Source: an uncultured Bacteroidota bacterium (GTDB lineage: Bacteria; Bacteroidota; Bacteroidia; B-17B0; Aurantibacillaceae). Taken from it: a stretch of 35,836 nucleotides of DNA. Location: contig CALMMX010000196.1 of NCBI GenBank assembly GCA_937868545.1, forward strand, positions 1-35,836, written 5' to 3'. A program made the position numbers and the translations under genes. Shown piece after piece: positions 3,001-34,001 of the stretch. Below the pieces are notes generated by a model. The model did not search any database. It was not told the origin of the DNA and saw only the letters and a list, made by a program, of their open reading frames with translations. Positions within the stretch are counted from its first letter, which is position 1. Each line of letters opens with the position of its first letter.

Positions 3001-6000
3001 TCCGAAAGATTATTACCATGTTGGGCAACTGTTGGGAATATGTTTAATGGAAATATTTATGTAAACACATCTGGTAGTGCACAAGGTATTACTTTTTGTG
3101 GTGGTAATTCTATAGCAACAGCTACATTGGTAGCTACTAAAACAATTGCCTCAGGAACTATTGGATTAAACGCTGGTTATTTAATACTTAAACAATTTAC
3201 ACAATTAGGAAGTGTGCCTATTAATTTAACACTTAATCCAACAGCAACTTATTTGCAGTATGGACCATTATCTAATTTAGGTGGTAATGTAACTTCTGTT
3301 AGTCCTGGATTATATTTCCATGGCTGTACATTCAATGGTTTTGCTACCTGTACTAAAAATGGGACAACTAATGATGCTAGTAATGGAAGTAATATTTTTA
3401 ATGGAGTAGCAACTATGAATAATACTGGTAGTGGTTACTTATTATTTGGAAATGGAAATCATGATGAATTTAATACTACAGCAACATTTAATAATTTAGG
3501 TTCAAGTCATATTTATGTTTCATATAATAGCATAAATAATATTTTTGGAGGTGTTACTACATTTAATAATTCTCCTACTTCCACAAATTCATGGATTTAT
3601 GTGGCTAACTATCAAATTAATAATTCAATATTTAATGATAACATAATTGTAAATTGTTTAAACGGAGCTGGAGTTTATTTTGGAAGTTCAACTGGAACTT
3701 CAACGCTTAGTGCTGGTAAAACAATTAGTGTTGGAGCTGGTGGATTTAATTCTGGACAACTTATTTTACGTCAATTTACACAAGTTTCTGCAACCCCACA
3801 AAGTTTAACAACTACTGGAACTAGTTTTATTCAGTATGGTCCAACATCTTCATTTGATGGAAATGTAACTTCTGTGAGCCCAGGCTTATGGTTTCATGGC
3901 TGTACGTTTAATGGTTCAGCTACTTGTACTAAAAATGGTACTAGTAACGATCAAAGTACTGGAAACAATGTTTTTAATGGTACTACTATAATTAATGATA
4001 TTGGTTCTGGATATTTATTATTAGGAAATGGTAATAGAGACCAGTTTAATACAACTACTACATTTAATAATTTAGGTTCAAGTAATATTTATGTTGCCTA
4101 TAATAGTGTAAATAATATTTTTGGTGGTGTTACAACGTTTAATAATGCACCTACATCTACTGGGTCATGGATTTACGTTGCTTTGTTTGCAGCAAATAAT
4201 TCTACGTTTAAAGATAATATAATAGTAAATTGTGTTAATGGAGCAGGTGTTTATTTTGGTAATTCTACTGGAACATCAACTTTAAGTGCAGGTAAAACAA
4301 TAAGTGTTGGATCTGGTGGGTTTAATTCTGGTCAACTTGTTTTAAAACAATTTTCTCAAGTATCTGCTACTCCACAAAGTTTAACAACTACAGGAACTAG
4401 TTTAATTCAATTTGGTCCAACTTCTTCATTTGATGGTGACATCACTTCTATTAGTCCTGGATTATTATTTAACACGAGTGTTTTTAATGGGTCAGTTACT
4501 AGTACAAAAAATGGTACTACAAACGATGTTTCTCCTGGTGGAAATATTTTTAATAGCACAGCAAGTATTACAAATGCTGGAACTGGAGCATTATATATGG
4601 CTAATTCTTTCAGTGATGCTTACAAAGGTAATGTAGTATTTACTCAAAATAATACGGGAATATTTTATCCTAATCATAATACTAATTGCACATATGAAGG
4701 TAATATTGCTGTAAACTCAACTGGAACGTATTCAATAACTTTTGGACAAGCAGGCGGTGGAATTGCAACTATTACAGGTTTAAATCCACAAGTTATTTCA
4801 AAACTAGGGACAGCTGGCAATCCACGTTTTTCAAGATTAATAATTAATAAAAGTGCCGATTCGGTTTATTTACAAACTAAAGTTAATGTATTAAATTATT
4901 TAACCTTAACTCAAGGTATAGTTAATACCACTTCTACTAACATTTTATATATGAATAATGCTTCAACTACATCTGTTGGCAATAGTTTGAGTTTTATAAA
5001 TGGTCCTATGGATTACGAAATGAGTTTAACTGGTATTCGCGCCTTGAATTTACCAATAGGGAAAGCACCAGATTGGAGACCTGCAATTTTAACTGTAAAT
5101 CATAGCAGTGGCACATCATACACTTACAATAGTGAAGTTTTTAATGCAAGTGCTAATGCTTTAGGTTGGACCTTGCCTACAACTATTGCAAATGTATCTA
5201 GGATTCACTATTGGGATATCGTTAGAAGAAATACTACTACGTCTGTTGTAACACCAACTTTACATGTTTCAGGAACTCAAACCATTACTCTTTTTTATGA
5301 TGTAAATGATGGTGTTACTGATCCAACAAATTTAGCTGTTTGTAAAAATACATTTACTGCAACCACAGCTTGGAAAGATATTGGTGGAACAGGCGCAACT
5401 ATTACAACAGGTAGTGTAACTTCAACTTCTGCACCAACTGTTTTTAATTCGTTTAGTAGATTTACATTAGGAAATAAAGATAAAGGAGTTAATCCATTGC
5501 CAGTTGAATTACTATATTTTACAGCAACTCCAAATGATAATCAAGTAAATTTGGATTGGGCAACAGCAACTGAAGTAAATAATGATTATTATGAAATTGA
5601 AAAAAGTAGCGATGGTGTAAACTTCGAATATATTACAACAGTGAAAGCTCATGGTGACGGTAATAGTACTTCATTGCAGAAATACAGTTCAGTTGATAAA
5701 AATCCATTAAAAGGCATTTCATATTACCGATTAAAGCAAGTTGATAAATCAGGAGAGTTTAAATATGCACCAATTGTTGATGTTGAATTTAAATCTAATT
5801 CATTTGTAAATATTTTTCCAAATCCTGCATCCACTGTTTTATATGTAAATTATAGTCAGGATTTTGAAAATGCTACAATTAAAGTAATTAATGCTACAGG
5901 TTCTTTAGTAAAAGAAAATGTATTGATTAAATCTTTTAATGGACAAATTAATGTTTCAGATTTAGCTAATGGTATTTACTATTTCATTGTTGAAACCCCT

Positions 6001-6039
6001 AAATCAATTGAAAACATTAAGATTAGTATTCAGAAATAA
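1..6039 (+). CDS. Giant repetitive T9SS-secreted surface protein, 5'-truncated
   Basis: The frame is open from base 1 and already reads repeat sequence there, so the first possible start (TTG at 94) is an artefact and the gene begins outside the window. About 2010 residues are visible. Up to about base 4800 they form long repeats rich in Asn, Gly, Thr and Ser with recurring FNG, NNVFNG and FTQLG motifs, which suggests a parallel beta-helix or beta-strand-repeat adhesin. A non-repetitive region follows. The last ~180 residues start at LPVELLYFTA, with an alternating module seen in many Bacteroidota secreted proteins. They end in a T9SS type A sorting domain (FPNPAS, then NGIYYF and a basic tail). 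The product is probably exported by T9SS and attached to or released from the cell surface. The binding target is unknown. The stop TAA is at 6037-6039. Confidence 0.9.
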   Translation, partial: TKTSASNIGSTGNNVFNGTTSITNSGTGYLILTNGGVGRNETFNGVTTLNTTNTGGLYIGYGQNVAVNANMIINNTASTGLIQLGRVGTFVLNSGVTLTCGAFSGASLNLYKISQIGSTAQTISPGANGGVNIYGSNLSGALTVNAGIITAQTSTFATTVTYNMSGTTGNCWASGGNTYNGVLNVNNSSSGYIGFANGTADTYNGVVNLTNTSATGGRIIFGNNCTSQFNEDINVSQYGTTSASGIALGWSGTFPVINLASGKNIFVSGAFSSGYLQLLKMQAAVTTAINLSTTGTSNVQLNNNVFNGTVDVTAPDIYPNGGTYNAAVSFIKTGGAGGNHNSGNVNIFNSTLNIENQSTGYIMLGYQSADQFNDNITVTSSNTGGIYFGWFGDTGTPTLASGKTITIGSGGFSAGSLHFGSFTQLGTATPINLTLTGTAMFEVYKNTIPTTFNSDLTVTAPNIELRGGTFNGTAEFTKTAGTSNHNNAIQNIFNKSFTINQQSTTGYFMVGYNSNDLFNGDIIVTNIGTQPIYFGWGSGTGTPTQAAGYSITVGPAGFSGGALVFNTFTQLGTTPVNLNFTGTDAYLRFARNSIFNGDITSVTPRIFFDGCTFNGFVNSTKTGALSDASNGGNFFNGLSTFVNNGSGYFMLGNGSPDTWNNDVTFTNTGSNWFYTCYNSVGNLFNGNITVNSTGTSAGIRFCDYGTSTATLSATKTILTGTFDKGTLLLPRFTQLGSAPINLTLSVGSSNLIFGPSSALGGDVTSTSPGLYFNGCVFNGLTNCTKTGTGGDYSQGGNVFNAPSTIINSGSSYLLLGGTYPDTWNDDVTFTNNGSERLLPCWTSTGNLFNGNIYVNTAGSAQGIYFCGGNATATATLAATKTIASGTLGLSAGYLILKQFTQLGSAPINLTLNPTATYLQYGPLSSLGGNVTSVSPGLFFHGCTFNGTTDCTKNGSSGDYSQGGNVFNGVSNITNSGSSYLLLGNSNPDIWNDDVTFTNNGSERLLPCWATVGNMFNGNIYVNTSGSAQGITFCGGNSIATATLVATKTIASGTIGLNAGYLILKQFTQLGSVPINLTLNPTATYLQYGPLSNLGGNVTSVSPGLYFHGCTFNGFATCTKNGTTNDASNGSNIFNGVATMNNTGSGYLLFGNGNHDEFNTTATFNNLGSSHIYVSYNSINNIFGGVTTFNNSPTSTNSWIYVANYQINNSIFNDNIIVNCLNGAGVYFGSSTGTSTLSAGKTISVGAGGFNSGQLILRQFTQVSATPQSLTTTGTSFIQYGPTSSFDGNVTSVSPGLWFHGCTFNGSATCTKNGTSNDQSTGNNVFNGTTIINDIGSGYLLLGNGNRDQFNTTTTFNNLGSSNIYVAYNSVNNIFGGVTTFNNAPTSTGSWIYVALFAANNSTFKDNIIVNCVNGAGVYFGNSTGTSTLSAGKTISVGSGGFNSGQLVLKQFSQVSATPQSLTTTGTSLIQFGPTSSFDGDITSISPGLLFNTSVFNGSVTSTKNGTTNDVSPGGNIFNSTASITNAGTGALYMANSFSDAYKGNVVFTQNNTGIFYPNHNTNCTYEGNIAVNSTGTYSITFGQAGGGIATITGLNPQVISKLGTAGNPRFSRLIINKSADSVYLQTKVNVLNYLTLTQGIVNTTSTNILYMNNASTTSVGNSLSFINGPMDYEMSLTGIRALNLPIGKAPDWRPAILTVNHSSGTSYTYNSEVFNASANALGWTLPTTIANVSRIHYWDIVRRNTTTSVVTPTLHVSGTQTITLFYDVNDGVTDPTNLAVCKNTFTATTAWKDIGGTGATITTGSVTSTSAPTVFNSFSRFTLGNKDKGVNPLPVELLYFTATPNDNQVNLDWATATEVNNDYYEIEKSSDGVNFEYITTVKAHGDGNSTSLQKYSSVDKNPLKGISYYRLKQVDKSGEFKYAPIVDVEFKSNSFVNIFPNPASTVLYVNYSQDFENATIKVINATGSLVKENVLIKSFNGQINVSDLANGIYYFIVETPKSIENIKISIQK
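334..4700 (+). repeat. Long tandem repeats inside the giant surface protein gene
   Basis: Nine copies of an FTQLG-type strand can be aligned, with codon starts near 334, 841, 1261, 1699, 2191, 2692, 3193, 3772 and 4348. The unit length is about 420-580 bp: exactly 501 bp for 2191>2692>3193 and 576 bp for the last step. A second anchor, the G[GC]TFNG strand, gives matching spacings (491-501 and 576 bp) in the later units. Similarity rises from the N-terminal to the C-terminal copies. Copies are similar in protein but differ at many third codon positions. The repeat continues leftwards past base 1. Confidence 0.9.
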
Positions 6040-8643: not shown

Positions 8644-9228
8644 CTAGTTTTGTATCCATTTGTCAATTTGCCAAACAAGCAAAGAAGACCCAATACCAAC
8701 CACCATTCCTCCTAATACATCACTTGGAAAGTGAACACCTAAGCGCATGCGCGAATAACCAACGCCGCATGCATATAAATAACTTGGCACTGCAACATAC
8801 CATTTTTTGGTTGAAAGTGTTGCAGCAGTGGCCATAGCAAATGCAGTAGAGGTGTGTCCCGATGGAAATGAAAATTTACCAACTTCGTCTCTTTTAATAA
8901 TATCATTAGGATATTGCGCAAATGGTCTAGCTCGGTTAATACTTACTTTTAAACCTGTAGTTAATGCAATGTTTAATCCTATAGCTGCAGCTGTTTTTAC
9001 ACCATTTCGCATCATGGGTTTATCGTTTTGAAAATAGCCAGTAAGGAATATTGAACTTGGAGCAATAACCATCGCCGGATAAATAGATTTAGAAGTGAGT
9101 TTCATCGTTTTGTCCCAACAAGGCATTTCGTTTTTATTGATTGATTTTAATATTGATAAATCAACCGATTGAGCAGTCATAAAATAACTGCTTAATATAA
9201 AACTAACTATTATTGAAACGTATTTCAT
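8644..9228 (-). CDS. PAP2-family phosphatase, secreted or membrane-associated
   Basis: This is a 194-residue phosphatase of the PAP2 (type 2 phosphatidic acid phosphatase) superfamily. All three signature blocks are intact: KX6RP at 94-102, PSGH at 122-125, and SRX5HX3D with Ser159-Arg160, His166 and Asp170. A signal peptide with a likely cut after FMTA leaves Gln20 as the new N-terminus, so the active site should face the periplasm. Possible substrates are undecaprenyl pyrophosphate, phosphatidic acid or lipid A phosphate; the sequence does not decide. The start ATG shares one base with the stop of the upstream M50 gene (TAATG), so it is the last gene of a coupled four-gene operon. It is shorter and less hydrophobic than membrane-embedded PgpB-type enzymes. 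Confidence 0.88.
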   Translation of the reverse strand: MKYVSIIVSFILSSYFMTAQSVDLSILKSINKNEMPCWDKTMKLTSKSIYPAMVIAPSSIFLTGYFQNDKPMMRNGVKTAAAIGLNIALTTGLKVSINRARPFAQYPNDIIKRDEVGKFSFPSGHTSTAFAMATAATLSTKKWYVAVPSYLYACGVGYSRMRLGVHFPSDVLGGMVVGIGSSLLVWQIDKWIQN

Positions 9229-15238: not shown

Positions 15239-15341
15239 GGGCTAAAATTAGTTATTTATTACACTTTTAACGCTTTTTTTGAACAAAATTACCCCATAAC
15301 AAAGTAATTTTTTATATTTAGTGTTTACAAATTTAAAAATT

Positions 15342-16961
15342 ATGATTAAATCTTTTACTTTAATTACGCTTTGTGTTTTTGCCTTAAACTTTAGTTTAAA
15401 AGCAATTGATGGTCCCGACCAAGTTAAAATGGTTATGGCTAAACAAAAACTGTATGCTGGACAGTTTATTGGCGCTTTAAATTTATATAAAGAAGTGCTT
15501 GCCAAAAATCAAGATGATGCATCGGTGTTATATTATGTAGGGTATTGCAACTACGAATTAAAAAAATACGACTTAGCAGCAGAGCATCTTCAAAAAGCCA
15601 TTGCTACTAATAAAGATGTAAAACCAGAAACGCATTTAGTTTTAGGTAAAATTTATTTAACTCAAGAAAAAGTAAACGAAGCACTTACAGAGTTTAATGC
15701 GTTTAAATCATCTGCTAAATCAAAAGATGCGCAATTAGAAGATGTAGATGTTTATATAGAGCACTGTAACAATGCTAAAAAATATTTACCAAGTCCTAAC
15801 AATGATATTAAAATTGCAAATTTAGGTACAGCAGTTAATTCTAAGTTCGATGATCAAACGCCTTGTATAAGTGCAGATGGAATGAAATTAGTATTTACAA
15901 CTCGCCGTCCTCAAACTACAGATTCTCCAACAGATATTGAAGGAGATGGTAAATATTTCCAAGATATTTATATTTCTAACTGGGATACAATTAACAAAAA
16001 GTGGATGGAGAGTGATGAGGTTTCAGGGAATGTAAATACAGATGCTCATGATGCTTGTACAAGTATTTCGCCAGATGGTAAACAAATATTTTTATATAAA
16101 AACGATTTAAAAGATAACGAATCAAGAGGTGGAGATATTTTTGTATCTAAAGTAATTAGTAATAAATGGAAAACTCCAGAGCCATTGGGTAAGCCTGTAA
16201 ATACTACGTTTTGGGAAGGTGGAGCTTGTATTTCTCCTGATGGAAAAACATTATTTTTTATAAGCGAAAGAAAAGGCGGTTACGGACATGCAGATATTTG
16301 GATGGTGAAACGTATAAATAAAAAAGAGTGGGGTAAGCCAGTGAATTTAGGTCCAGAAATTAATTCGGAGTATGATGAAGTAGGAGCATTTTTAGCACCA
16401 GATGGTAAAACATTATTTTTCTCTTCAAATGGAAAAGGTTCTATGGGATCGTATGATATTTTTAAATCAACCTTAGAAGGCGATAAATGGTCGAAGCCAG
16501 TAAACTTAGGATTTCCAATTAATACAGTTTACAAAGATGGTCCTTTAGTAGTAAGTGCAGATGCTAAGTTAGCTTATTTTGCTAGTGAAAGACCAGGTGG
16601 TTTGGGTGAAAGTGATATTTACAGTGCTGATATTAGCAAGTATGGTATTTTTGAAAAAGATGGTAAAAAGAAAGATCACAGCGATTTAAGTATTTTAAAA
16701 GGTACAGTACGCGATGGTTTTGAAGGAGTTGGTATTGCAGGTGTAGAAATAAGCATTTTAGATGCAGCAGGAAATGCCATAGCATCAACCGTTACAAATG
16801 ACTTAGGCGAATATTTTTTAACATTAAAAGGTGATGTATCATACACAGTAAAAGTTGTGAAAAAAGGGTACAAAGCCGCTGAAGAAAAAATTGATTTAAA
16901 GGTTGGTAAAACTGAAACCTTCTCTTTAGAAAAACAATTTATGCTTAGTAAGGAAAAATAG
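15342..16961 (+). CDS. TPR and PD40 beta-propeller protein, PorE-like but without OmpA domain
   Basis: This is a 539-residue exported protein. The ATG at 15342 is chosen over the upstream GTG (15321) because it directly starts a good signal peptide (hydrophobic core, then LKA before IDGP). TPR-like helices span about 25-125. Five PD40/WD40-like blades follow, each with an S/A-[PA]-D-G-K-x-L-x-F core and often ending DIW, DIF or DIY. A carboxypeptidase-regulatory-like beta domain (GVGIAGVEISILD, LGEYFLTL) closes the protein. The order resembles the T9SS-linked periplasmic protein PorE, but the C-terminal OmpA peptidoglycan-binding domain is absent. A role in the envelope or in gliding/T9SS is therefore only possible. 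It ends before a strong terminator. Confidence 0.82.
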   Translation: MIKSFTLITLCVFALNFSLKAIDGPDQVKMVMAKQKLYAGQFIGALNLYKEVLAKNQDDASVLYYVGYCNYELKKYDLAAEHLQKAIATNKDVKPETHLVLGKIYLTQEKVNEALTEFNAFKSSAKSKDAQLEDVDVYIEHCNNAKKYLPSPNNDIKIANLGTAVNSKFDDQTPCISADGMKLVFTTRRPQTTDSPTDIEGDGKYFQDIYISNWDTINKKWMESDEVSGNVNTDAHDACTSISPDGKQIFLYKNDLKDNESRGGDIFVSKVISNKWKTPEPLGKPVNTTFWEGGACISPDGKTLFFISERKGGYGHADIWMVKRINKKEWGKPVNLGPEINSEYDEVGAFLAPDGKTLFFSSNGKGSMGSYDIFKSTLEGDKWSKPVNLGFPINTVYKDGPLVVSADAKLAYFASERPGGLGESDIYSADISKYGIFEKDGKKKDHSDLSILKGTVRDGFEGVGIAGVEISILDAAGNAIASTVTNDLGEYFLTLKGDVSYTVKVVKKGYKAAEEKIDLKVGKTETFSLEKQFMLSKEK

Positions 16962-19872: not shown

Positions 19873-22680
19873 CTACTTTACTTCAAAATATTTTTTAAAG
19901 TTGTAAGTAAATAATAATAGTAAGTAACGGTTCAAAGCATTTGTTCTAATATCTTGTATATAGCTATCAGTGTTGGTTCGCTGTATAGAATTGTTTTGAT
20001 TTAAAATATCATACGCCATTAATTTTAGTTCTGCTTGTTTGTTTTTTAAAAACTTATAGCCTATGGCTGCATTCCATAAAGAAATAGTTTGGTTGTAACT
20101 ACTACTTAATCCATTGTAATAGGAGTTTATGTATTCTGTTTGCAAAATAAGGCCTTTCCAAGGGTTTAAATTAATTTTTAGTTTGGAGTTTTGAGAAAAG
20201 TATGTGGTGTTGGCACTGCTTTGCAACGTATTATTAATATTACTGTAAGATGAATTTGATGAAATGCTGTAATCAAATTTTTGGCTGATATTACTACTCA
20301 ATACTAATCCTAAACCAGCAGTGGCAGTTTTTGCATAGTTTAAATTTTGATTTATTAAACCTGGTATATTATTGTAATTACCCGAGGCATTAACGCTCAA
20401 ATTTGATTTAATAATGGAAATAGGAAATGTATAATTTATAAATGAACGAATGGTGTAGTAGTTATTTACATTCACAGGGCGTGTTATTTGCGAGCCTTTA
20501 GCTAAGTAAATAGAATTGTAAACTGTTGTATCATTATTAGCAATTAAGGTACTATTACTAATGTAATTGGATGAGTAATTGCCATTTACCAATGCAAAAA
20601 AGGATGTAGCTTTTTCGGTATTTACTGCCGAATACCTAATGTTTAAGGCTTGTTGAAAATCTTGCTTTAAATCAGAATTACCAGTACTAAGTTGTAATGA
20701 GTTGGTATTATTTACTACATCTTGCAATTGCTCAATACTAGGCGCATTATTAGAAGTTTTGTAAGTGAGTCGTAAATTTTTCTTTGGTGTTATTTTGTAT
20801 TGCAGTTGTGCAGTTGGCAAAATAGATTGAAATATTCTGCTATTAATTAAACTACTTGGGTACTCTTGGTTTTTACTTAGTTGTGCCCATTGGTAAGCAG
20901 CATTTAAAGTAATATTTAATTTTGGTTTTTGGTATTTGTAACCTATACCTCCCGATTGAGATTGATAACTATTCCCAAAAACGTTAGATAAAGAAGTGTC
21001 TAACAATGTGTAGTTGTTTGAGGTATAATTATAATCATAATTTTTTTTAGAAGAATAGTTAGAATTATAAGTTGTATTGTAGCTTACTAATAAAAAGCTA
21101 GTGAGGCTTAGTGGTTCTGTATATGTAATGTTTCCGCTAATTGTTTTCCCGTTTTTACCCGTAATGGTCGTTTGATTTATGGTGTCGGAAAGTGTAGTGG
21201 TATTGTAATAATTATTTAAAATATATAAATTTCCATCACCATTATTTTTGGTAATTGTTGGAGTAATATTAATTGATAGTGTTCTTCCTTTTTTAGGAAA
21301 TGAGTGCCTATATAAAATTGGTAATGAAATATTATAGCTAAAATTAGTTGATGATGTTTTGTTTTCGGTATTACTAATAGTTGTATCTAATTTAATATTA
21401 TCACCAAATAATTTTTTTGAATTTGTATTGTTTTGGAAGGAGGCTTTAGGTTGAATTGTAATTTGATTGTTACTGTCTAGTTTAGTATCAAACTTAAAAT
21501 TGATTCGGTTATTGTAATTATCAGATATTACGGTGTTATTTTCATTATAAATAAGTCCATTAGTATTGCCAATAATGTATTGCTGGTAAAGATTTGATAG
21601 GGCATTGTTATTAGTGAAATTAAAAAAATAACTTCCTGTAATGTCTGTTTTCTTCCCCCATTTATCAAGGTAGTTTATTCCAATTGCCGATGTTGTATTA
21701 ATCCCATTGGTAGTATTTACCAAAAAATTATCACTTGGGTTTTGTCCGCCATTTCCTTGTCCTCCAACGCCTCTTTGTCCTCTACCAGAACCTTTTCCTC
21801 CATTACTTCCAGAACTCATTACACCTGCAAGGTCATCACTCGAAAAATTTTGTTCGTTAATGTTATTCATTTGAGCCAAAACAGTAAGTCGTCTTTTATC
21901 TTTAAAATAATTAATTACACCACCCACTTTATATTTATTATCATAACCATAGCCAGCATAAGCCTTTCCAAATAGGCCATTTCTAAATTGTGGCTTGGTA
22001 ACTATATTTATAGTTTTTTGTGCCGAACCATCATCAAATCCTGTAAACAGCGATTGATCACTTCGTTTATCAAACACCTGAACTTTGTCAATAATTTCTG
22101 CTGGTAAATTTTTTAAAACGGCATTGGCATCATCACCAAAAAATTGTTTGCCATCTACTGTAACTTGTTTTACTTCTTCGCCTTGTGCATTTACTTTACC
22201 ATCAACAACTGTTACACCAGGCATCTTATTCACTAAATCTTCTGCAGTAGCATCTTTATTTACTTTAAAAGCATTGGCGTTATAGCTTGTTGTATCGCCT
22301 TGTTGCGTTGCTAATGTTTGCTTAGCTTCAACTGTAACTTCTTTAAATAATTTAGATTCTTGCACTAGATTAAAAGTGCCAAGTTGTATTGGTTCTGTGT
22401 AGGTAAATATATTTTTAAAAATTGTTTTATAACCCATCGACATCAACTTTACAACGTACGGAGTATTAGTTTTAGCATCATTAATTATAAAGTTTCCATT
22501 TACATCTGTTACCGCACCTTGTACTAAAGATGAGTCTTTAGGATGCAGTAATATAACAGAAACACCAACTGCTCCTTCTTTACGTTCATCTATTACATTT
22601 CCACTAAGGCTTATAAATTGAGCTTTAGCTGCCGAAACAAACAATAGGAAATAAATTATTATAAAGCACCTTTGCACCAT
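19873..22680 (-). CDS. Outer-membrane beta-barrel protein with CarboxypepD-reg and TonB-plug domains
   Basis: This is a 935-residue outer-membrane protein. ATG 22680 is chosen over TTG 22695 because it begins a clean signal peptide whose cut after AKA leaves Gln as the mature N-terminus. A carboxypeptidase-regulatory-like domain follows (LSGNVIDERKEGAVGVSV). Next comes a plug domain (DLVNKMPGVTV, QVTVDGKQFFGDDA, IDKVQVFDKRSDQS), then a long barrel rich in Asn, Thr, Ser and Tyr. This is the outer membrane beta-barrel/TonB-receptor-like family common in Bacteroidota (PF14905 type). A Gly-rich loop (about 280-315) interrupts the early barrel. I see no clear TonB box or SusD partner, so the substrate is unknown. 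It ends 70 bp from the cassette array. Confidence 0.85.
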   Translation of the reverse strand: MVQRCFIIIYFLLFVSAAKAQFISLSGNVIDERKEGAVGVSVILLHPKDSSLVQGAVTDVNGNFIINDAKTNTPYVVKLMSMGYKTIFKNIFTYTEPIQLGTFNLVQESKLFKEVTVEAKQTLATQQGDTTSYNANAFKVNKDATAEDLVNKMPGVTVVDGKVNAQGEEVKQVTVDGKQFFGDDANAVLKNLPAEIIDKVQVFDKRSDQSLFTGFDDGSAQKTINIVTKPQFRNGLFGKAYAGYGYDNKYKVGGVINYFKDKRRLTVLAQMNNINEQNFSSDDLAGVMSSGSNGGKGSGRGQRGVGGQGNGGQNPSDNFLVNTTNGINTTSAIGINYLDKWGKKTDITGSYFFNFTNNNALSNLYQQYIIGNTNGLIYNENNTVISDNYNNRINFKFDTKLDSNNQITIQPKASFQNNTNSKKLFGDNIKLDTTISNTENKTSSTNFSYNISLPILYRHSFPKKGRTLSINITPTITKNNGDGNLYILNNYYNTTTLSDTINQTTITGKNGKTISGNITYTEPLSLTSFLLVSYNTTYNSNYSSKKNYDYNYTSNNYTLLDTSLSNVFGNSYQSQSGGIGYKYQKPKLNITLNAAYQWAQLSKNQEYPSSLINSRIFQSILPTAQLQYKITPKKNLRLTYKTSNNAPSIEQLQDVVNNTNSLQLSTGNSDLKQDFQQALNIRYSAVNTEKATSFFALVNGNYSSNYISNSTLIANNDTTVYNSIYLAKGSQITRPVNVNNYYTIRSFINYTFPISIIKSNLSVNASGNYNNIPGLINQNLNYAKTATAGLGLVLSSNISQKFDYSISSNSSYSNINNTLQSSANTTYFSQNSKLKINLNPWKGLILQTEYINSYYNGLSSSYNQTISLWNAAIGYKFLKNKQAELKLMAYDILNQNNSIQRTNTDSYIQDIRTNALNRYLLLLFTYNFKKYFEVK

Positions 22681-22733
22681 TCTACTAATATACAATTTCT
22701 ATTTATAGCGTATCTAATTTGAAAAGCACTTAT

Positions 22734-22782: not shown

Positions 22783-23427
22783 ATGAACCAAAAGATTAAA
22801 GATTTTTTAAATAATGCAAAAACATGGAAAGAAGAATATGAATTATTACATTCTATTATTTCTGATTGTGGATTAGTTGAAGATTTTAAATGGATGCACC
22901 CATGTTATACTTATAATAAGGCTAATGTTGTTTTAATTCATGGGTTTAAAGAGTATTGTGCAATTGCCTTTTTTAAAGGAGCGTTGTTAAGTGATTCAAA
23001 AGGTGTATTAATTCAGCAGACAGAAAATGTTCAATCTGGTAGGCAAATACGATTTAAATCTTTGAAGGAAATTGAAAAGAATGAATCTATTATTAAGGCT
23101 TATATTTTTGAAGCTATTGAAATTGAGAAGGCAGGTTTAAAAGTTGAATTAAAGAAAAGAGATGATATTGTTGCCTGTGAGGAATTACTCAATAAATTCA
23201 AAGAAGATGAAAAATTTAAAAAGGCATTTCACACTTTAACACCTGGGCGTCAAAAAGCCTATCATTTGTTTTTTAATGATGCGGCTCAATCAAAAACAAG
23301 GGTTACGCGCATCGAAAAATATTTACAAAGAATTATGAATGGCAAAGGGTTAACTGATTGTACTTGTGGCTTATCTAAGAGAATGCCCAATTGCGATGGT
23401 TCTCATAAACAATTGTTGAATAAATAA
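22783..23427 (+). CDS. YdeI/DUF1801-like protein with C-terminal CDGSH iron-sulfur motif
   Basis: This is a 214-residue cytoplasmic protein. The N-terminal ~110 residues match the DUF1801/YdhG-like fold (DFKWMHPCYTY, VVLIHGFKEYCAIAFFKG, GRQIRFKS). Residues about 140-190 match the YdeI/OmpD-associated module (FHTLTPGRQKAYHLFF, KTRVTRIEKYLQRI). The last ~20 residues contain CTCGLSKRMPNCDGSH. This fits the CDGSH consensus C-x-C-x2-[ST]-x3-P-x-C-D-G-[STA]-H exactly, so three Cys and one His could hold a 2Fe-2S cluster. I recall similar tails in other Bacteroidota YdeI-type proteins. The biochemical role is unknown; 'bacteriocin protection' names for this family rest on weak evidence. It diverges from the beta-barrel gene. 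Confidence 0.8.
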   Translation: MNQKIKDFLNNAKTWKEEYELLHSIISDCGLVEDFKWMHPCYTYNKANVVLIHGFKEYCAIAFFKGALLSDSKGVLIQQTENVQSGRQIRFKSLKEIEKNESIIKAYIFEAIEIEKAGLKVELKKRDDIVACEELLNKFKEDEKFKKAFHTLTPGRQKAYHLFFNDAAQSKTRVTRIEKYLQRIMNGKGLTDCTCGLSKRMPNCDGSHKQLLNK

Positions 23428-27805: not shown

Positions 27806-28747
27806 ATGTATAATAAAGAAGATAAAATATTAATTATTGGTGCTGGCGGTCAAATTGGGATTGAATTAGCTCAAGAGCTTAGTTTGCTATATAGTAATAA
27901 TAATGTAATTGTGGCAGATTTAAAGCCAATTGTTGCCTTACCAAATAATCCATTTGAAGTGTTAGATGTATTAAACAAGGAGGCATTGTTTTCAATTGTT
28001 AAAAAACATAGTATTAAGCAAGTGTATTTATTAGCGGCCTTGTTATCTGCAACTGGTGAGCAAAATCCTATGTTTGCCTGGAAGCTAAACATGGAGGGCT
28101 TATTTAATGTGTTAGATTTAGCCAAAGAAAAACATATAAATAAAGTATATTGGCCAAGTTCTATTGCTGTATTTGGACCAACTACTCCTAGAATTGATAC
28201 CCCACAATATACGGTAATGGAACCATCAACTATTTACGGAATCAGTAAACAAGCTGGTGAACGTTGGTGTGAATGGTATTTTAAGAAATTTGGAGTAGAT
28301 GTAAGAAGTCTTCGTTATCCTGGGTTAATTGGCTGGAAATCTGCACCAGGCGGTGGAACTACCGATTATGCTGTACATATTTTTCATGAGGCACTTAAAC
28401 ACAAATCTTATGAGTGTTTTTTGTCGGAAAACACTGCTTTACCTATGATGCACATGGAGGATGCAATAAGAGCAACTATAGAAATTATGCACGCACCTTC
28501 AGAAAATATAAAAATAAGAGGAAGTTATAATTTAGCTGGTATAAGTTTTACACCTGCTCAAATCGCTTCAGAAATCCAAAAATTTATCCCAGAATTTAAA
28601 ATTTCGTATAAACCAGATTTTAGACAGGATATTGCAAATAGTTGGCCTCAAAGCATTTCTGAAATTAATGCCAATAATGATTGGGGTTGGTCAGCTAAAT
28701 ACAACCTTTCGTCGTTGGTTGAAAACATGTTGAAAAACTTGGCATAA
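27806..28747 (+). CDS. L-threonine 3-dehydrogenase, SDR/epimerase-like type
   Basis: This is a 313-residue NAD-dependent enzyme of the extended SDR (NAD-epimerase) family. GAGGQIG at 12-18 binds NAD, and Tyr144-x3-Lys148 (YGISK) with the SS pair at 118-119 forms the catalytic set. It is assigned to the SDR-type L-threonine 3-dehydrogenase, not a sugar epimerase, because of YWPSSIAVFG, the PGGGTTDYAV block (181-190) and LPMMHMEDAIRAT. I recall these from the Flavobacterium-type enzyme. It oxidises L-threonine to 2-amino-3-ketobutyrate; the usual partner, 2-amino-3-ketobutyrate CoA ligase, is not in the window. It diverges from trhO with a 216-bp gap. Confidence 0.88.
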   Translation: MYNKEDKILIIGAGGQIGIELAQELSLLYSNNNVIVADLKPIVALPNNPFEVLDVLNKEALFSIVKKHSIKQVYLLAALLSATGEQNPMFAWKLNMEGLFNVLDLAKEKHINKVYWPSSIAVFGPTTPRIDTPQYTVMEPSTIYGISKQAGERWCEWYFKKFGVDVRSLRYPGLIGWKSAPGGGTTDYAVHIFHEALKHKSYECFLSENTALPMMHMEDAIRATIEIMHAPSENIKIRGSYNLAGISFTPAQIASEIQKFIPEFKISYKPDFRQDIANSWPQSISEINANNDWGWSAKYNLSSLVENMLKNLA

Positions 28748-28936: not shown

Positions 28937-29830
28937 ATGAGAAAAATATATTTAATAGTCATTTTTTTAGTTTACCAAATTAGCCAAGGCCAATCTCAAT
29001 CCTATGAATTAGGCGGTGCTTCAGGTAAAGATACCGTTAATTTAATTGATGCCTTAGGTAAAAAACAAGGTAAATGGATTTTAAAAGGTAAACACAAACC
29101 TGGTTCTTGCTATGCTCCAGAGCAAAAAGCTGAGGAAGGAAAGTATGCTGATAATCGTAAAATTGGTAAGTGGTTAGAGTATTACTGTAATGGTAATATG
29201 AAAAATCAATTAACTTTCCAAAATGGTCGTCCTGATGGTTATGCTATTATGTATCATGAAAATGGTAAAATTTCAGAAGAAGGAAATTGGAAAAATAATC
29301 GTTGGACAGGTCCTTATAAGTTATATTATGAAAATGGTCAACCGCAACATGAATTTAATTTTAATGCTAGTGGAAAAAGAGAAGGGCCTGTTAAATATTT
29401 CTATGAAAACGGTCAATTAGCTATAGAAGGAAATTTTGTTAATGGAAAAGAGGCTGGTGTTATTAAAGAATATCATGAAAATGGAGATATAAAAGCTGAA
29501 AAAACATTTAATGATGGTAATGTTGATGTAGCTACTATTAAAGAATATGCTCCTAAAAAACCAATTGTTAAAACTGTAGAAAAAATTGAAGGTCCTAAAG
29601 TTGTATTAAAACCAGATGAAAAAGTTAATGGCGCTTCAAAAGGTCCGTTAGTATTAAATGGTCAAAATATTACTTATAACAAAAACAAGCAAATTACTAA
29701 AGATGGTGTTTTTAAAGATAATCGTTTAATGGATGGTAAAGCATACATTTATGATGTAAATGGTATTTTGCAAAGAATTTCAGTTTACAAAAACGGAAAT
29801 TATGTTGGAGATGCCCCTATAGAAAATTAA
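28937..29830 (+). CDS. Secreted YwqK/MORN-repeat protein
   Basis: This is a 297-residue exported protein with a signal peptide whose likely cut after ISQG leaves Gln at the mature N-terminus. Residues about 40-190 hold six or so MORN/YwqK-type repeats (G-K-W-x-x-Y-Y-x-N-G, then E-G-x-[WF]-x-N-x-[RK] patterns such as YHENGKISEEGNW, YYENGQPQ and FYENGQLAIEGNF). After a Lys/Pro-rich linker, another repeat pair lies at the C-terminus (DGVFKDNRLMDGKAYIYD). Database names such as 'YwqK family antitoxin' are misleading for exported Bacteroidota members. No toxin gene is adjacent. The function is unknown; a periplasmic or surface structural role is likely. It ends before a strong terminator. Confidence 0.8.
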   Translation: MRKIYLIVIFLVYQISQGQSQSYELGGASGKDTVNLIDALGKKQGKWILKGKHKPGSCYAPEQKAEEGKYADNRKIGKWLEYYCNGNMKNQLTFQNGRPDGYAIMYHENGKISEEGNWKNNRWTGPYKLYYENGQPQHEFNFNASGKREGPVKYFYENGQLAIEGNFVNGKEAGVIKEYHENGDIKAEKTFNDGNVDVATIKEYAPKKPIVKTVEKIEGPKVVLKPDEKVNGASKGPLVLNGQNITYNKNKQITKDGVFKDNRLMDGKAYIYDVNGILQRISVYKNGNYVGDAPIEN

Positions 29831-29909: not shown

Positions 29910-31373
29910 ATGGAAAAGTTATTTATATACAATACGCTTAGTAGAAAAAAAGAAGAGTTTAAGGCTATAAATCCACCATTTGTTGGAATGTATGTTTGTG
30001 GACCTACAGTTTATAGTGATGTGCATTTAGGTAATTGTAGAACATTTATGTCTTTTGATATAATTTATAGATATTTATTGCATTTAGGCTATAAAGTACG
30101 TTATGTAAGAAATATTACAGATGCTGGACATTTAGAAAGTGATGGGGATGTTGGCGAAGATAAAATTTCCAAAAAAGCAAAATTGGCTCAATTAGAACCA
30201 ATGGAAATTGTTCAGAAATATACTGTTGGCTTTAGAGATATAATGGCACTATTTAATGCTTTGCCACCTAGTATTGAACCTACTGCAACAGGACATATTA
30301 TAGAACAACAAGAGATTGCCAAAAAAATTATTGAAAAAGGCTTAGCCTACGAACACAATGGTAGCGTTTATTTTGATGTTGAAAAATACGCTAAGGATAA
30401 TAATTATACTGCACTTACAGGAAGAAAACTTGACGAATTACTTGAAAATACAAGGGATTTAGATGGTCAACAAGATAAAAAAGGACGTTTGGATTTTGCA
30501 TTATGGATTAAAGCAAAGCCTGAGCATTTAATGAAATGGCCTAGTCCTTGGGGTGTTGGTTTTCCTGGTTGGCATATCGAATGTTCTGCTATGAGCACAA
30601 AATATTTAGGTGAGCAATTCGATTTACATGGTGGGGGAATGGATTTACAAGCAACACATCATACAAATGAAATTGCACAAAATGTAGCTTATTGTGGAAA
30701 AACACCTGCAAATTATTGGATGCATACAAATATGCTTACTGTAAACGGGCAAAAAATGAGTAAATCTTTAGGCAATAGTTTTTTACCTATGGAATTATTT
30801 ACTGGTAACCATCCTTTATTAACTAAAGGTTTCAGTCCAATGGCAGTTAGATTTTTTATGATGCAAACGCATTATAGAAGTACTTTAGATTTTAGTAATG
30901 AGGCATTAACAGCATCTGAAAAAGGCTATCAAAAATTAATGGAAGCATATAAAACATTGCAAACATTAACTCCATCGGCAAATGCAAACGAAGATCTTAA
31001 AGCATTAGAAAGAAATTGTTATGAGGCCATGAATGATGATTTTAATACACCAGTATTAATTGCTCATTTATTTGATGCTATTAGAATAATTAATTCTGCA
31101 AATGATAAAAAACTATTTGTAACAAAAGAGGATATACAACTATTGAATAATATTTATCAGTATTTTGTATTTGATGTTATGGGATTAAAGAAAGAGGAAG
31201 AATCTGGTAAATCTAATGTGGCACTCGAAAATGTTATGAAATTAGTGTTGGATTTAAGAGCTAAAGCTAAGAATAATAAAGATTTTGCAACTTCTGATGA
31301 AATAAGAAATAGATTAACAGAAGCTAATATTCAAGTAAAAGATGGTAAAGATGGTTCGTCTTGGAGTATTTAA
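29910..31373 (+). CDS. cysS: Cysteine-tRNA ligase
   Basis: This 487-residue class I aminoacyl-tRNA synthetase joins cysteine to tRNA-Cys. The zinc and HIGH region is CGPTVYSDVHLGN (Cys30, HLGN 39-42). The other zinc ligands are in GWHIECSAMS and ATHHTNEIAQ. The KMSKS loop is GQKMSKSLGN near residue 280. The C-terminal DALR-type helical domain and the final KDGxxxxWSI are complete, so the gene is full length. The start ATG lies just after the upstream terminator, and the promoter must be in the short gap or be supplied by read-through. The next gene (glutaminyl cyclase) begins 13 bp after the stop. Confidence 0.97.
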   Translation: MEKLFIYNTLSRKKEEFKAINPPFVGMYVCGPTVYSDVHLGNCRTFMSFDIIYRYLLHLGYKVRYVRNITDAGHLESDGDVGEDKISKKAKLAQLEPMEIVQKYTVGFRDIMALFNALPPSIEPTATGHIIEQQEIAKKIIEKGLAYEHNGSVYFDVEKYAKDNNYTALTGRKLDELLENTRDLDGQQDKKGRLDFALWIKAKPEHLMKWPSPWGVGFPGWHIECSAMSTKYLGEQFDLHGGGMDLQATHHTNEIAQNVAYCGKTPANYWMHTNMLTVNGQKMSKSLGNSFLPMELFTGNHPLLTKGFSPMAVRFFMMQTHYRSTLDFSNEALTASEKGYQKLMEAYKTLQTLTPSANANEDLKALERNCYEAMNDDFNTPVLIAHLFDAIRIINSANDKKLFVTKEDIQLLNNIYQYFVFDVMGLKKEEESGKSNVALENVMKLVLDLRAKAKNNKDFATSDEIRNRLTEANIQVKDGKDGSSWSI

Positions 31374-31386
31374 TAAAGTTTATACG

Positions 31387-32220
31387 ATGAGAAATAAAGG
31401 TATTATATGCTCGGTTTTATTTGCCACTTTTTTAATTTCATGTGGGCCAGATAAACCAAAGGAAGTAAAAAATGTAGAAGTTCCACCAGTAGTGGAAACT
31501 CCTAAAACTCCTGTAATTACTTATAGTTTAGTCAATACCTTTCCACATAATATAAATTCATTTACTGAAGGCTTTTTGGTTAATGATGGAAAGTTATTTG
31601 AAAGTACAGGTGCCCCCGAAAATTTACCTCAAACAAAATCGTTGTTTGGTATAGTGGATTTAAAAACAGGGAACATTGATACAAAAGTAGAAATTGATAA
31701 ATCTCTTTATTTTGGAGAAGGCATTTGTATACTTAAAAACAAAATATATCAGTTAACCTATAAAAACCAAACTGCTTTTGTTTATGATGCTAAAACATTT
31801 AAAAACATTGGTAAATATTCTTATCAAAATAGAGAAGGTTGGGGTTTAACAACTGATGGAAAGAATTTAATTATGAGTGATGGCACCAATTTTCTAACTT
31901 TTTTTGATGAAAATTTTAATGTTACCAAAACGCTTGATGTTGCAGAAAATGGCTATGCTGTTGATTATTTAAATGAACTTGAGTACATCAATGGATTTAT
32001 TTATGCAAATATTTACACTACGCACGATGTTGTGAAGATTGACCCTGCAACAGGTGATGTAGTTGGTAAAATGGATTTAAGTAATTTGTTTCAAGCTAGT
32101 AGGGAAAAGAATATGTATGCTTTAGAAACAAATGGAATTGCTTATGATTCAATAAGTAATAAAATTTATGTTACTGGAAAAATGTGGCCAAGTATTTATG
32201 AAATAAATTTTGCTCACTAA
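31387..32220 (+). CDS. Glutaminyl-peptide cyclotransferase, plant/bacterial type, lipoprotein
   Basis: This is a 277-residue protein of the glutamine cyclotransferase family (PF05096), a five-bladed beta-propeller enzyme that turns N-terminal Gln into pyroglutamate. ATG 31387 is chosen over the frame-open ATG at 31342 because it avoids overlap with cysS. It directly begins a lipoprotein signal with lipobox LISC, so the enzyme is probably a periplasm-facing lipoprotein. A Lys/Pro/Val linker follows, then family motifs HNINSFTEGFLV, LFESTGAPEN, YFGEGICI, LTYKNQ, REGWGLTTDG, LNELEYINGFIYAN and LETNGIAYD. It sits between cysS and a T9SS cargo gene whose mature protein should begin with Gln, a likely substrate. 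Confidence 0.9.
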   Translation: MRNKGIICSVLFATFLISCGPDKPKEVKNVEVPPVVETPKTPVITYSLVNTFPHNINSFTEGFLVNDGKLFESTGAPENLPQTKSLFGIVDLKTGNIDTKVEIDKSLYFGEGICILKNKIYQLTYKNQTAFVYDAKTFKNIGKYSYQNREGWGLTTDGKNLIMSDGTNFLTFFDENFNVTKTLDVAENGYAVDYLNELEYINGFIYANIYTTHDVVKIDPATGDVVGKMDLSNLFQASREKNMYALETNGIAYDSISNKIYVTGKMWPSIYEINFAH

Positions 32221-32234
32221 ATTATAATATAGAA

Positions 32235-34001
32235 ATGACTACTTTAAAAATGAGATTAAGTTTTATTTCTATCATTGGTTTAGTTTTTTTATCATTTCAC
32301 ACTTCCTTTTCTCAAGTAAATTCTTGCATTGAATCTGAAATAAATTCAGTATCCTACAGAACAAATTATTTAAACTCTTTAAATGTTCTTAGTAAGGACA
32401 CTAATTATTTATATAATGTTATACCTACTAGTGGTTTTCAAAATTCTAAAATTTTGAGTTTACCACATTTCCCTTACCCAATATTATTTATACATGGAAT
32501 TTATAGTAGTGCTGATACATGGCTGCCATTTTTTAATTATGCTATTAGTAAAGGTTGGAGTTATGGAGGACAAACTAATTTTTGTTTGAATTCTGATAAT
32601 GATTTGGTGTATTCAAATATAACTAATGCAGGCACAACTGATATAAAGGATTATACGGCAAGCTTAACAAATGCAGATTTTTATTTATTGAATTTTAATG
32701 TTGATGCTGACGGAACTGTATATGGAGGAAGTTATAACACCGCTACCCAAAGTAACCAAGCTGCTATTAAAAAACAAGGTGTTGCTGTAAAGGCGGCTAT
32801 TAAACATATATTAGAAACAACTGGTAAAAATAAAGTAGTTATAGTTTCTCATTCTATGGGAGGATTAGCCTCAAGAGAATATTTACAAAATCCGGTTAAT
32901 TGGCAAGATGATGGAGAACATCATATTGCAAAATTGGTTACACTTGGCACTCCACATGGTGGTAGTAATATTAGTGGCACGAGTTTATCTACCTTTTTTA
33001 CTGGCATAGATGAAAAATCTGATGCAATGAGGGATTTGAGAAAATCATATTTTTATTCGGGAGACCCAGGAGTTTATTTATTTGGTGGGGTAGAAATAAA
33101 ATCTGTAATGCGCGATAATATTTTTGGTTTTTATAATTATGATGTGAGTTGTAATGCTGTAGATAGTGAATTGGTAATTGGTTTAAATCACAAATCAATT
33201 CCTTCTAATTTAGATTATTGCGCTGTTATTGGCGATTGGTCCTTGGATCCTGCTGGTCCTGGAGATGGAGCAGTGGATGTAAACCAAGCTCAACCAAAAA
33301 ATTATTTACCAATTGTTTCCGAAACTTTTGTGGTGCCTGTAAATCATACTGCAATACAATCTCAAACAAATACAGTTTTTCAAGCATTTGATGAGCCTGA
33401 TGATTCTAATCTTGCATATGAAGTTAAACTTTCAGAATCATATAATGGTTTTTTATCTTTACAAGCACCTGATGGAAAATATTTAAATGATATTGATAAT
33501 TATGTTTTTTCTATCGCTGCATCTGCCAGTATTATAGCCAGCTTTAGCAATTTTGTACTCCCAAAAACACATATTAAAATTATTAATGCACAATCTCAAG
33601 AATTAATGTATCATGACTCTGTCAGTAATTTTTCGTTTGTAACTCCTAAAATTTGGTTGCCAAGAGGGAATTATATTTTAGAAATGTCTGGTAATCCAAC
33701 TGCCGATAGTTGGCAATATCCGTATAATTTTAAAATTGATTTAACAGGTAAAAAAAGCAGCTTGAATTTATATCCTAATCCTACTGCGGGTTCTTTGCAA
33801 TTTTCATATTGTAATTTAAGTGAATCATTAGCAAATATTGCTATTTACAACCAGTTTGGTGAAAAAATAAAGGAAGAAAATAATGTGAAATTAAATATGC
33901 CTATTTTAGTTGAAGATTTAAGTAGCGGAATTTATTTTTTATCGGTTACTCAAAATGGAACGAGCATTGGCAATTTTAAATTCGTTAAAGTGAAAGAATA
34001 A
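32235..34001 (+). CDS. T9SS-secreted lipase-like alpha/beta hydrolase
   Basis: This is a 588-residue secreted hydrolase. The signal peptide (about 1-26) ends in TSFS before Gln27. The catalytic domain has the oxyanion segment LFIHGIYSSADTW (84-96), nucleophile elbow SHSMGG with Ser207, and GTPHGG (238-243), typical of PGAP1/lipase-type enzymes. Asp344 or Asp348 and His371 (VPVNHTAI) are probable triad members. After an unassigned beta region, the C-terminus is a T9SS type A sorting domain (LYPNPTAG, SSGIYFLSV, final FKFVKVKE). It probably acts on lipids or esters outside the cell. It lies 14 bp after the glutaminyl cyclase gene, so the two are likely co-transcribed. ATG 32250 (MRLSF) is an alternative start. 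Confidence 0.85.
   Translation: MTTLKMRLSFISIIGLVFLSFHTSFSQVNSCIESEINSVSYRTNYLNSLNVLSKDTNYLYNVIPTSGFQNSKILSLPHFPYPILFIHGIYSSADTWLPFFNYAISKGWSYGGQTNFCLNSDNDLVYSNITNAGTTDIKDYTASLTNADFYLLNFNVDADGTVYGGSYNTATQSNQAAIKKQGVAVKAAIKHILETTGKNKVVIVSHSMGGLASREYLQNPVNWQDDGEHHIAKLVTLGTPHGGSNISGTSLSTFFTGIDEKSDAMRDLRKSYFYSGDPGVYLFGGVEIKSVMRDNIFGFYNYDVSCNAVDSELVIGLNHKSIPSNLDYCAVIGDWSLDPAGPGDGAVDVNQAQPKNYLPIVSETFVVPVNHTAIQSQTNTVFQAFDEPDDSNLAYEVKLSESYNGFLSLQAPDGKYLNDIDNYVFSIAASASIIASFSNFVLPKTHIKIINAQSQELMYHDSVSNFSFVTPKIWLPRGNYILEMSGNPTADSWQYPYNFKIDLTGKKSSLNLYPNPTAGSLQFSYCNLSESLANIAIYNQFGEKIKEENNVKLNMPILVEDLSSGIYFLSVTQNGTSIGNFKFVKVKE

Follow-up and report, generated by a model that had tools for sequence, protein, structure and literature searches.

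Two unrelated lineages of glutaminyl cyclase, the animal type and the plant type, are found in the Bacteroidetes, a distribution called surprising when it was described (PMC5837995, Bochtler et al. 2018). The main text of that study counts 574 species with the animal type, 507 with the plant type and 63 with both, and most of these enzymes are predicted lipoproteins. It relates them to the Bacteroidetes Q-rule, in which exported proteins carry glutamine (Gln) at position +1 behind the signal peptidase I (SPI) cut, on average in 71% of cases. PgQC of Porphyromonas gingivalis (PG_2157) is described as a membrane-anchored Q-rule cyclase whose gene opens an operon of three, the others being PG_2158 and hemG (PMC7948796, PMC10653852). 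Here we analyse a plant-type (type I) cyclase gene on a contig of an uncultured Bacteroidota bacterium of the family Aurantibacillaceae (CALMMX010000196.1, assembly GCA_937868545.1), of which 35,836 nucleotides, hereafter the window, were studied. The window enzyme and its relatives resemble the published Q-rule system in the high frequency of +1 Gln, in the two unrelated lineages rarely found in one species and in the conservation of residues E69, N155 and K225. They differ from that account in that both lineages occupy one chromosomal slot, directly behind the cysteinyl-tRNA synthetase gene cysS, even between sister species. The window enzyme also differs from PgQC, to which its fold is unrelated. 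The main text of PMC5837995 has no matches for neighbo-, operon, PF05096 or M28, and the literature searched, mostly without subscription papers, holds no report of a cysS-cyclase locus or of an in-situ cyclase swap. The enzyme, the Q-rule and the lipoprotein status had been described before; the novelty lies in the apparent in-situ exchange behind cysS. We consider it very probable that the window gene encodes the general cyclase of the cell and that the types in its slot have repeatedly displaced one another in situ.

The cyclase gene (31387..32220, + strand) encodes 277 residues that match PF05096 with 268 bits against a cut-off of 22.3 (E-value 9.8e-80; profile positions 19-249 of 249). 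The protein aligns with four solved cyclase structures (2faw, 3mbr, 3nok and 3nol), the first three of which we take to come from papaya, Xanthomonas and Myxococcus, respectively. Alignment places the equivalents of papaya Glu69, Asn155 and Lys225 at Glu111 (31717..31719), Asn196 (31972..31974) and Lys265 (32179..32181), all on the + strand, and four motif patterns were each found in at least 52 of the 53 sequences scanned, the window's included. The three papaya residues are catalytic, Glu69 serving as proton shuttle, and at the position of papaya Gln24 those Bacteroidetes members that lack Gln, 19% of the total, have Glu (PMC5837995); the window enzyme has Glu61 there (31567..31569, +), as has 3mbr. 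A predicted lipoprotein signal peptide (31387..31443, +) ends in LIS|C, with the lipid-attachment Cys19 at 31441-31443. The earlier note on this DNA had called the gene product a plant-type cyclase and predicted it to be a periplasmic lipoprotein; both designations hold, the latter as a prediction that speaks against a cytoplasmic enzyme, as do its coordinates, start codons and the 14-bp gap (32221-32234) that it gave between the cyclase and the hydrolase gene downstream. Homology to the solved structures suggests a five-bladed propeller, and family membership together with the catalytic residues suggests activity on N-terminal Gln; the enzyme is probably located at the inner membrane. It shares family and catalytic residues with the type I enzymes 2faw, 3mbr and 3nok, but is unlike them in its lipoprotein leader and its place behind cysS.

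The gene immediately upstream (29910..31373, +), which we take from its sequence to be cysS, is the conserved neighbour of the cyclase slot, and not the hydrolase. Further upstream flanks conserved by synteny are a MORN-repeat protein gene (28937..29830, +; PF07661) and an NAD-dependent epimerase gene (27806..28747, +; PF01370); downstream, the slot is bounded by a gene running off the contig (34048..35836, +) that is presumably polA, encoding DNA polymerase I. PF05096 matches were found in 17 of 18 congeners, whereas 12 genomes, each representing a different family outside the window's own, gave no full-length match, and the plant-type gene stands directly behind cysS in 15 of the 17 congener loci. 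The one congener without a PF05096 match, G012, has the gene order epimerase, MORN, cysS, animal-type cyclase and polA, as in the plant-type congeners. Between G012 and its sister G006 the flanking proteins are 88% (epimerase), 92% (MORN), 90% (cysS) and 88% (polA) identical, whereas the two cyclases have no similarity in their catalytic domains and align in the leader and linker alone. The G012 enzyme matches 6qro (3.6e-96), 6qql (2.7e-77) and PF04389 (3e-31), and carries a lipobox, LFA|C. 6qro and 6qql are cyclase structures of P. gingivalis and Tannerella forsythia (PMC7948796), and the G012 enzyme is homologous to this group. In an alignment of 11 animal-type members the Asp, Glu-Asp and His columns are invariant, and these are candidate counterparts of the catalytic residues of the human enzyme. 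Across the 20 genomes of the genus, the slot holds the plant type in 16 and the animal type in one, two have the plant type elsewhere, and in one the contig ends in cysS.

The same alternation recurs at family level. Among 87 genomes of the window's family, cysS was found in 84, and a cyclase follows it immediately in 68 of these (41 plant type, 27 animal type). Overall, 26 genomes have only the animal type, 49 only the plant type, seven both and five neither, a near mutual exclusion (Fisher p = 4e-11, not corrected for kinship). In each of the seven two-type genomes the slot is held by the animal type, and the plant-type gene lies on a different contig. In the second large genus of the family the slot holds 25 plant-type and seven animal-type enzymes, and either enzyme is enclosed by the same genes, encoding proteins of ~870, 176 and 196 residues plus CysS upstream and a protein of ~180 residues plus PolA downstream (G229, G230 and G220 compared with G228 and G244). 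In a class-wide sample of 198 genomes, in which the animal type was called by our A1 profile at E <= 1e-40, 167 genomes have the animal type, 32 a full-length plant type and 196 cysS; by subtraction eight have neither type, some of these genomes being incomplete or reduced. Adjacency in this sample was counted for the genomes listed with coordinates, 121 for the animal type and 28 for the plant type. The animal type adjoins cysS on the same strand in 96 of the 121 (median gap 29 nucleotides), with representatives in 40 of 51 families; therefore the cysS-cyclase arrangement is probably old, with the animal type in it. Of 11 loci retrieved from other families, 10 have the animal type behind cysS, and in the eleventh, G026, both genes lie at contig ends. 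The plant type adjoins cysS in three of the 28, namely the window genome, G099 of the same family and G114 of family f16. As an observation on cysS itself, some family genomes (among them G224, G234, G235, G259, G260, G263, G271, G273, G275 and G277) match it in two pieces with a less similar C-terminal part, which would make theirs a mosaic variant or one with an insertion.

Gene displacement in situ, the exchange of a gene within an otherwise unchanged neighbourhood, is familiar from operons. What sets this case apart is that the incoming enzyme would not be homologous to the one it replaces, that this would have happened in several lineages, and that one tandem genome offers a possible intermediate. 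Unrelated proteins between the same flanking genes on both sides, as such displacement requires, were found here. The tandem, the sole genome with both genes at one site, is G114, from the other family f16, where cysS, a plant-type and an animal-type gene follow one another with gaps of 6 and 11 bp; it is a plausible intermediate of a swap. Its plant-type enzyme falls in a clade with four non-slot enzymes (ultrafast bootstrap, UFBoot, 99), apart from the other slot enzymes, and so looks like a separate, second insertion. In the plant-type tree (53 sequences) the slot enzymes of the window's genus make up one clade together with those of four other loci (UFBoot 99). The sister relationship of G006 and G012 has UFBoot 100 in the flank-gene tree, 96 for cysS and 100 for polA. 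Slot occupancy changes state four times on the cysS tree, three times on the polA tree and four times on the concatenated tree, where shuffled labels gave a mean of 12.5 changes and a minimum of seven. The cysS and polA trees disagree on G227, G228 and G244, and the cysS sequences of G228 and G244 are tilted slightly in identity towards other lineages, which is modest evidence that recombination may have occurred around the slot.

The exported proteins of the window and its genome point to a cyclase with many clients. The earlier note had read Gln at four of five SPI sites in the window, and all five sites are present in the sequence: MTA|Q in a PAP2 protein (8644..9228, -; PF01569), AKA|Q in an outer-membrane beta-barrel protein (19873..22695, -; PF14905), both other likely substrates, SQG|Q in the MORN protein, SFS|Q in the hydrolase and, as the exception, LKA|I in a TPR/PD40 protein (15321..16961, +; profile match). 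Four of five corresponds to p = 2e-5 at an assumed background of 4.5%, two of these cuts being read by eye where our crude predictor placed the PAP2 site two residues on and the PD40 site upstream. The bias extends beyond the window and lies well off background. With a stricter threshold applied to 20 sampled contigs of the window genome, Gln stands behind the best-scoring site in 13 of 22 proteins predicted to be cut by SPI, compared with 4.5% Gln at positions +2 to +15; a looser threshold and inclusion of the window (226 kb) give 17 of 34, compared with two of 29 in E. coli K-12 (150 kb; Fisher p = 2e-4). These figures come from ~6% of the window genome and a home-made predictor in place of SignalP on the whole proteome, and are probably too low because the predictor is blind to the +1 residue and mis-sites some proteins. 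The enrichment agrees in kind with the Q-rule as set out in the main text of PMC5837995; the bias is real, as the earlier note had it, and that published rule already explains it.

We picture a cell in which SPI would cut most exported proteins just before Gln, and a membrane-anchored, periplasm-facing propeller cyclase would convert this Gln to pyroglutamate, which may shield the proteins against aminopeptidases. The slot behind cysS would be an old one, usually held across the class by the unrelated M28-fold (animal-type) cyclase, and in the window's family each type would have taken over from the other at this site on several occasions. The most likely route would be insertion beside the resident enzyme or recombination between the conserved flanks, in either case via a two-enzyme stage. 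The cyclase of P. gingivalis is reported to be essential because of its activity (PMC10653852), and a swap would therefore demand such a stage.

The hydrolase downstream (32235..34001, +) would be one client of many. It is a PGAP1-like alpha/beta hydrolase (PF07819) predicted to be a cargo of the type IX secretion system (T9SS) from its C-terminal sorting domain (residues 512-578; PF18962, Por_Secre_tail, 44 bits) and a Sec signal peptide with a low predictor score (5.3), whose cut, SFS|Q27, lies at 32313-32315. With Gln at the predicted mature N-terminus it is a likely substrate, as the earlier note proposed. The further idea that the cyclase is dedicated to this adjoining cargo, or has co-evolved with it, draws on the 14-bp gap, the shared strand, the SFS|Q site with the T9SS domain, and a few cyclases at other loci (L156, L169, L175 and G253) with nearby proteins whose similarity to the hydrolase is mostly confined to its C-terminal part. 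We nevertheless regard it as highly improbable. In all 15 congener loci that keep the cysS-cyclase pair, no hydrolase lies between cyclase and polA among open reading frames (ORFs) of at least 60 residues; the pairing is local and lends no support to a special substrate relation. Gln at +1 is moreover found in many unrelated proteins, and a role of pyroglutamate in T9SS targeting is argued against in the main text of PMC5837995.

That both enzymes landed behind cysS independently, without any replacement, could be argued from the rarity of the plant type beside cysS outside the family (three of the 28 genomes listed, two of them from the family itself). Such a coincidence is very hard to credit given that both enzymes lie between the same flanks on both sides in one genus and again in a second, that the types are nearly mutually exclusive and that one genome has the tandem; two-sided synteny in particular speaks against it. 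A closer alternative concerns the history of G012, which may never have regained the animal type: its gene could be ancestral and kept while congeners, G006 included, gained the plant type, in some cases from each other, or an old tandem could have been lost differentially. The G114 tandem, although from another family, is in keeping with this, as is the G012 gene, which has no close donor in the sample, branches among family members and fits its genome in composition. The plant-type tree points the same way, grouping G006 with G015 and not near the base (support 64), which would fit transfer into G006. Retention would need several separate plant-type gains, since most trees nest G006 and G012 in an otherwise plant-only genus, and no tandem was found among the 68 filled family slots, the seven two-type genomes having their genes on different contigs. 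We lean against this history while giving it appreciable weight, and it is in any case a variant of displacement in situ, not its negation.

Repeated displacement of a general cyclase is itself opposed by several observations, among them the G006-G015 grouping and the tree conflict over G227, G228 and G244 already described. In fourteen further family genomes that have cysS the position just after it holds no cyclase, some of these loci lying at contig ends, and two of the 17 congener loci (G001 and G014) have the plant-type gene elsewhere and no cyclase after cysS. The genomes are drafts, and the animal-type gene of the G114 tandem is cut by the contig end. The trees do not agree on where in the genus the G006-G012 pair belongs (44% support in the concatenated one), and support for the slot plant-type clade falls to 55 once G099 and L182 are included. 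The flank trees may themselves recombine, which makes the number and direction of swaps less firm. To these points must be added lineages that follow the Q-rule although no cyclase is recognised in them. G022, 99% complete, has no PF05096- or M28-type cyclase above cut-off and yet has +1 Gln in 23 of 54 predicted SPI proteins (loci L102-L106 and L121-L131), not clearly different from cyclase-bearing samples (p = 0.07). The f39 lineage (G056, G130, G162 and G192; loci L195-L208, L244, L245, L251 and L253) lacks both types as judged with PF05096, with the A1 profile (E <= 1e-40) and from four of its M28 matches that were read, and has +1 Gln in 16 of 51 (G056, G162 and G130); pooled values, 16 of 51 against 73 of 127 (p = 0.003), suggest a lower frequency there, with a crude predictor and sample. 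Retention of an elevated +1 Gln without a known cyclase means that gene content and the Q-rule are not strictly coupled. Such lineages possibly have another cyclase, rely on spontaneous cyclisation, or keep a +1 Gln that survives without being cyclised.

Candidates for hidden cyclases in these lineages were rejected. The PF05096 match in G022 scores 19 bits, below cut-off, over ~100 residues. The four M28 proteins of f39 that were read, of ~340 residues, begin with leaders of SPI type (A|Q), lack a lipobox and, judged by their motifs, look like M28 aminopeptidases. In G096, a relative of the f39 genomes, the animal-type gene is still found next to cysS.

The similarity of leader and linker between the two folds raises the possibility that a swap replaces the catalytic domain only, grafted behind the resident lipoprotein leader, so that two folds would share one anchoring linker. 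The G012 animal-type linker reads CEENKPKEQVV and those of the plant type in the genus CEPDKPKQNVV and similar, and the G006 and G012 cyclases share 12 of 31 residues over the last part of the leader and the linker that follows the lipidated Cys. Over 10 residues the G012 linker scores 15.3 to 14 plant-type linkers of the genus, 2.0 to 14 other animal-type linkers of the family and -3.1 to the 38 background lipoproteins; the permutation fraction is 0.0007, rising to 0.005 when offsets are included. Mean similarity to the animal-type linkers of the slot is 3.59 for slot plant-type enzymes, 0.05 for non-slot plant-type enzymes and -4.52 for other lipoproteins. Leaders were taken where lipobox and domain start were recognised (25 slot, 19 non-slot plant-type), the set containing repeats (L147, L148 and L150 duplicate G247, G230 and G220, and G269 occurs twice); the background is the 38 lipoprotein-like ORFs kept after 36 of 74 were removed as cyclases. 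The linker sequences are related, and the p-values overstate accordingly. Counting against a graft, DNA likeness of the signal peptides is 0.39 against a background of 0.40 (57 sequences, some of them cyclases), the G006/G012 DNA match scores 32 against a null mean of 22.6 and maximum of 41, and the G114 pair reaches p = 0.046 for protein with DNA not significant. The animal-type linker of G021, from another family, scores 16.1, above that of G012, which fits an old shared leader or convergence. We consider the graft doubtful; a shared leader, convergence on a membrane-retention motif and chance remain as explanations of the likeness.

With both cyclases found in one slot, and different ones in sister species, the locus amounts to a natural complementation experiment. 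It speaks for a need of the cell for the reaction itself, whichever protein supplies it, and against a choice of enzyme dictated by the T9SS or by a fixed partner protein. The G006/G012 pair and the G114 tandem offer settings in which to study the replacement of a gene essential in P. gingivalis, and the Q-rule lineages without a recognised cyclase raise the prospect of a third enzyme.

Further observations concern genes around the locus and elsewhere in the window. Between cyclase and polA, seven of the 15 congener loci have no ORF of at least 60 residues and eight have a gene of ~190 residues (e.g. L023:8757-9332), one copy of which was scanned and matched no Pfam family above cut-off; genes of this size stand at the same place in other genera and families too. 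G014 and G001 (L033 and L034) each carry a 55-56% identical plant-type cyclase away from cysS, near genes that we take to be lnt- and lpdA-like, with a presumably tgt-like gene also present in G014. A T9SS cargo of at least 1981 residues is encoded at 94-6039 of the window; its ORF as listed has no signal peptide, and its N-terminus is probably off the contig, the ORF lying at the contig start. At 22783-23427, one ORF carries DUF1801, OmdA and then a CDGSH zinc-finger segment, the last below cut-off, in series.

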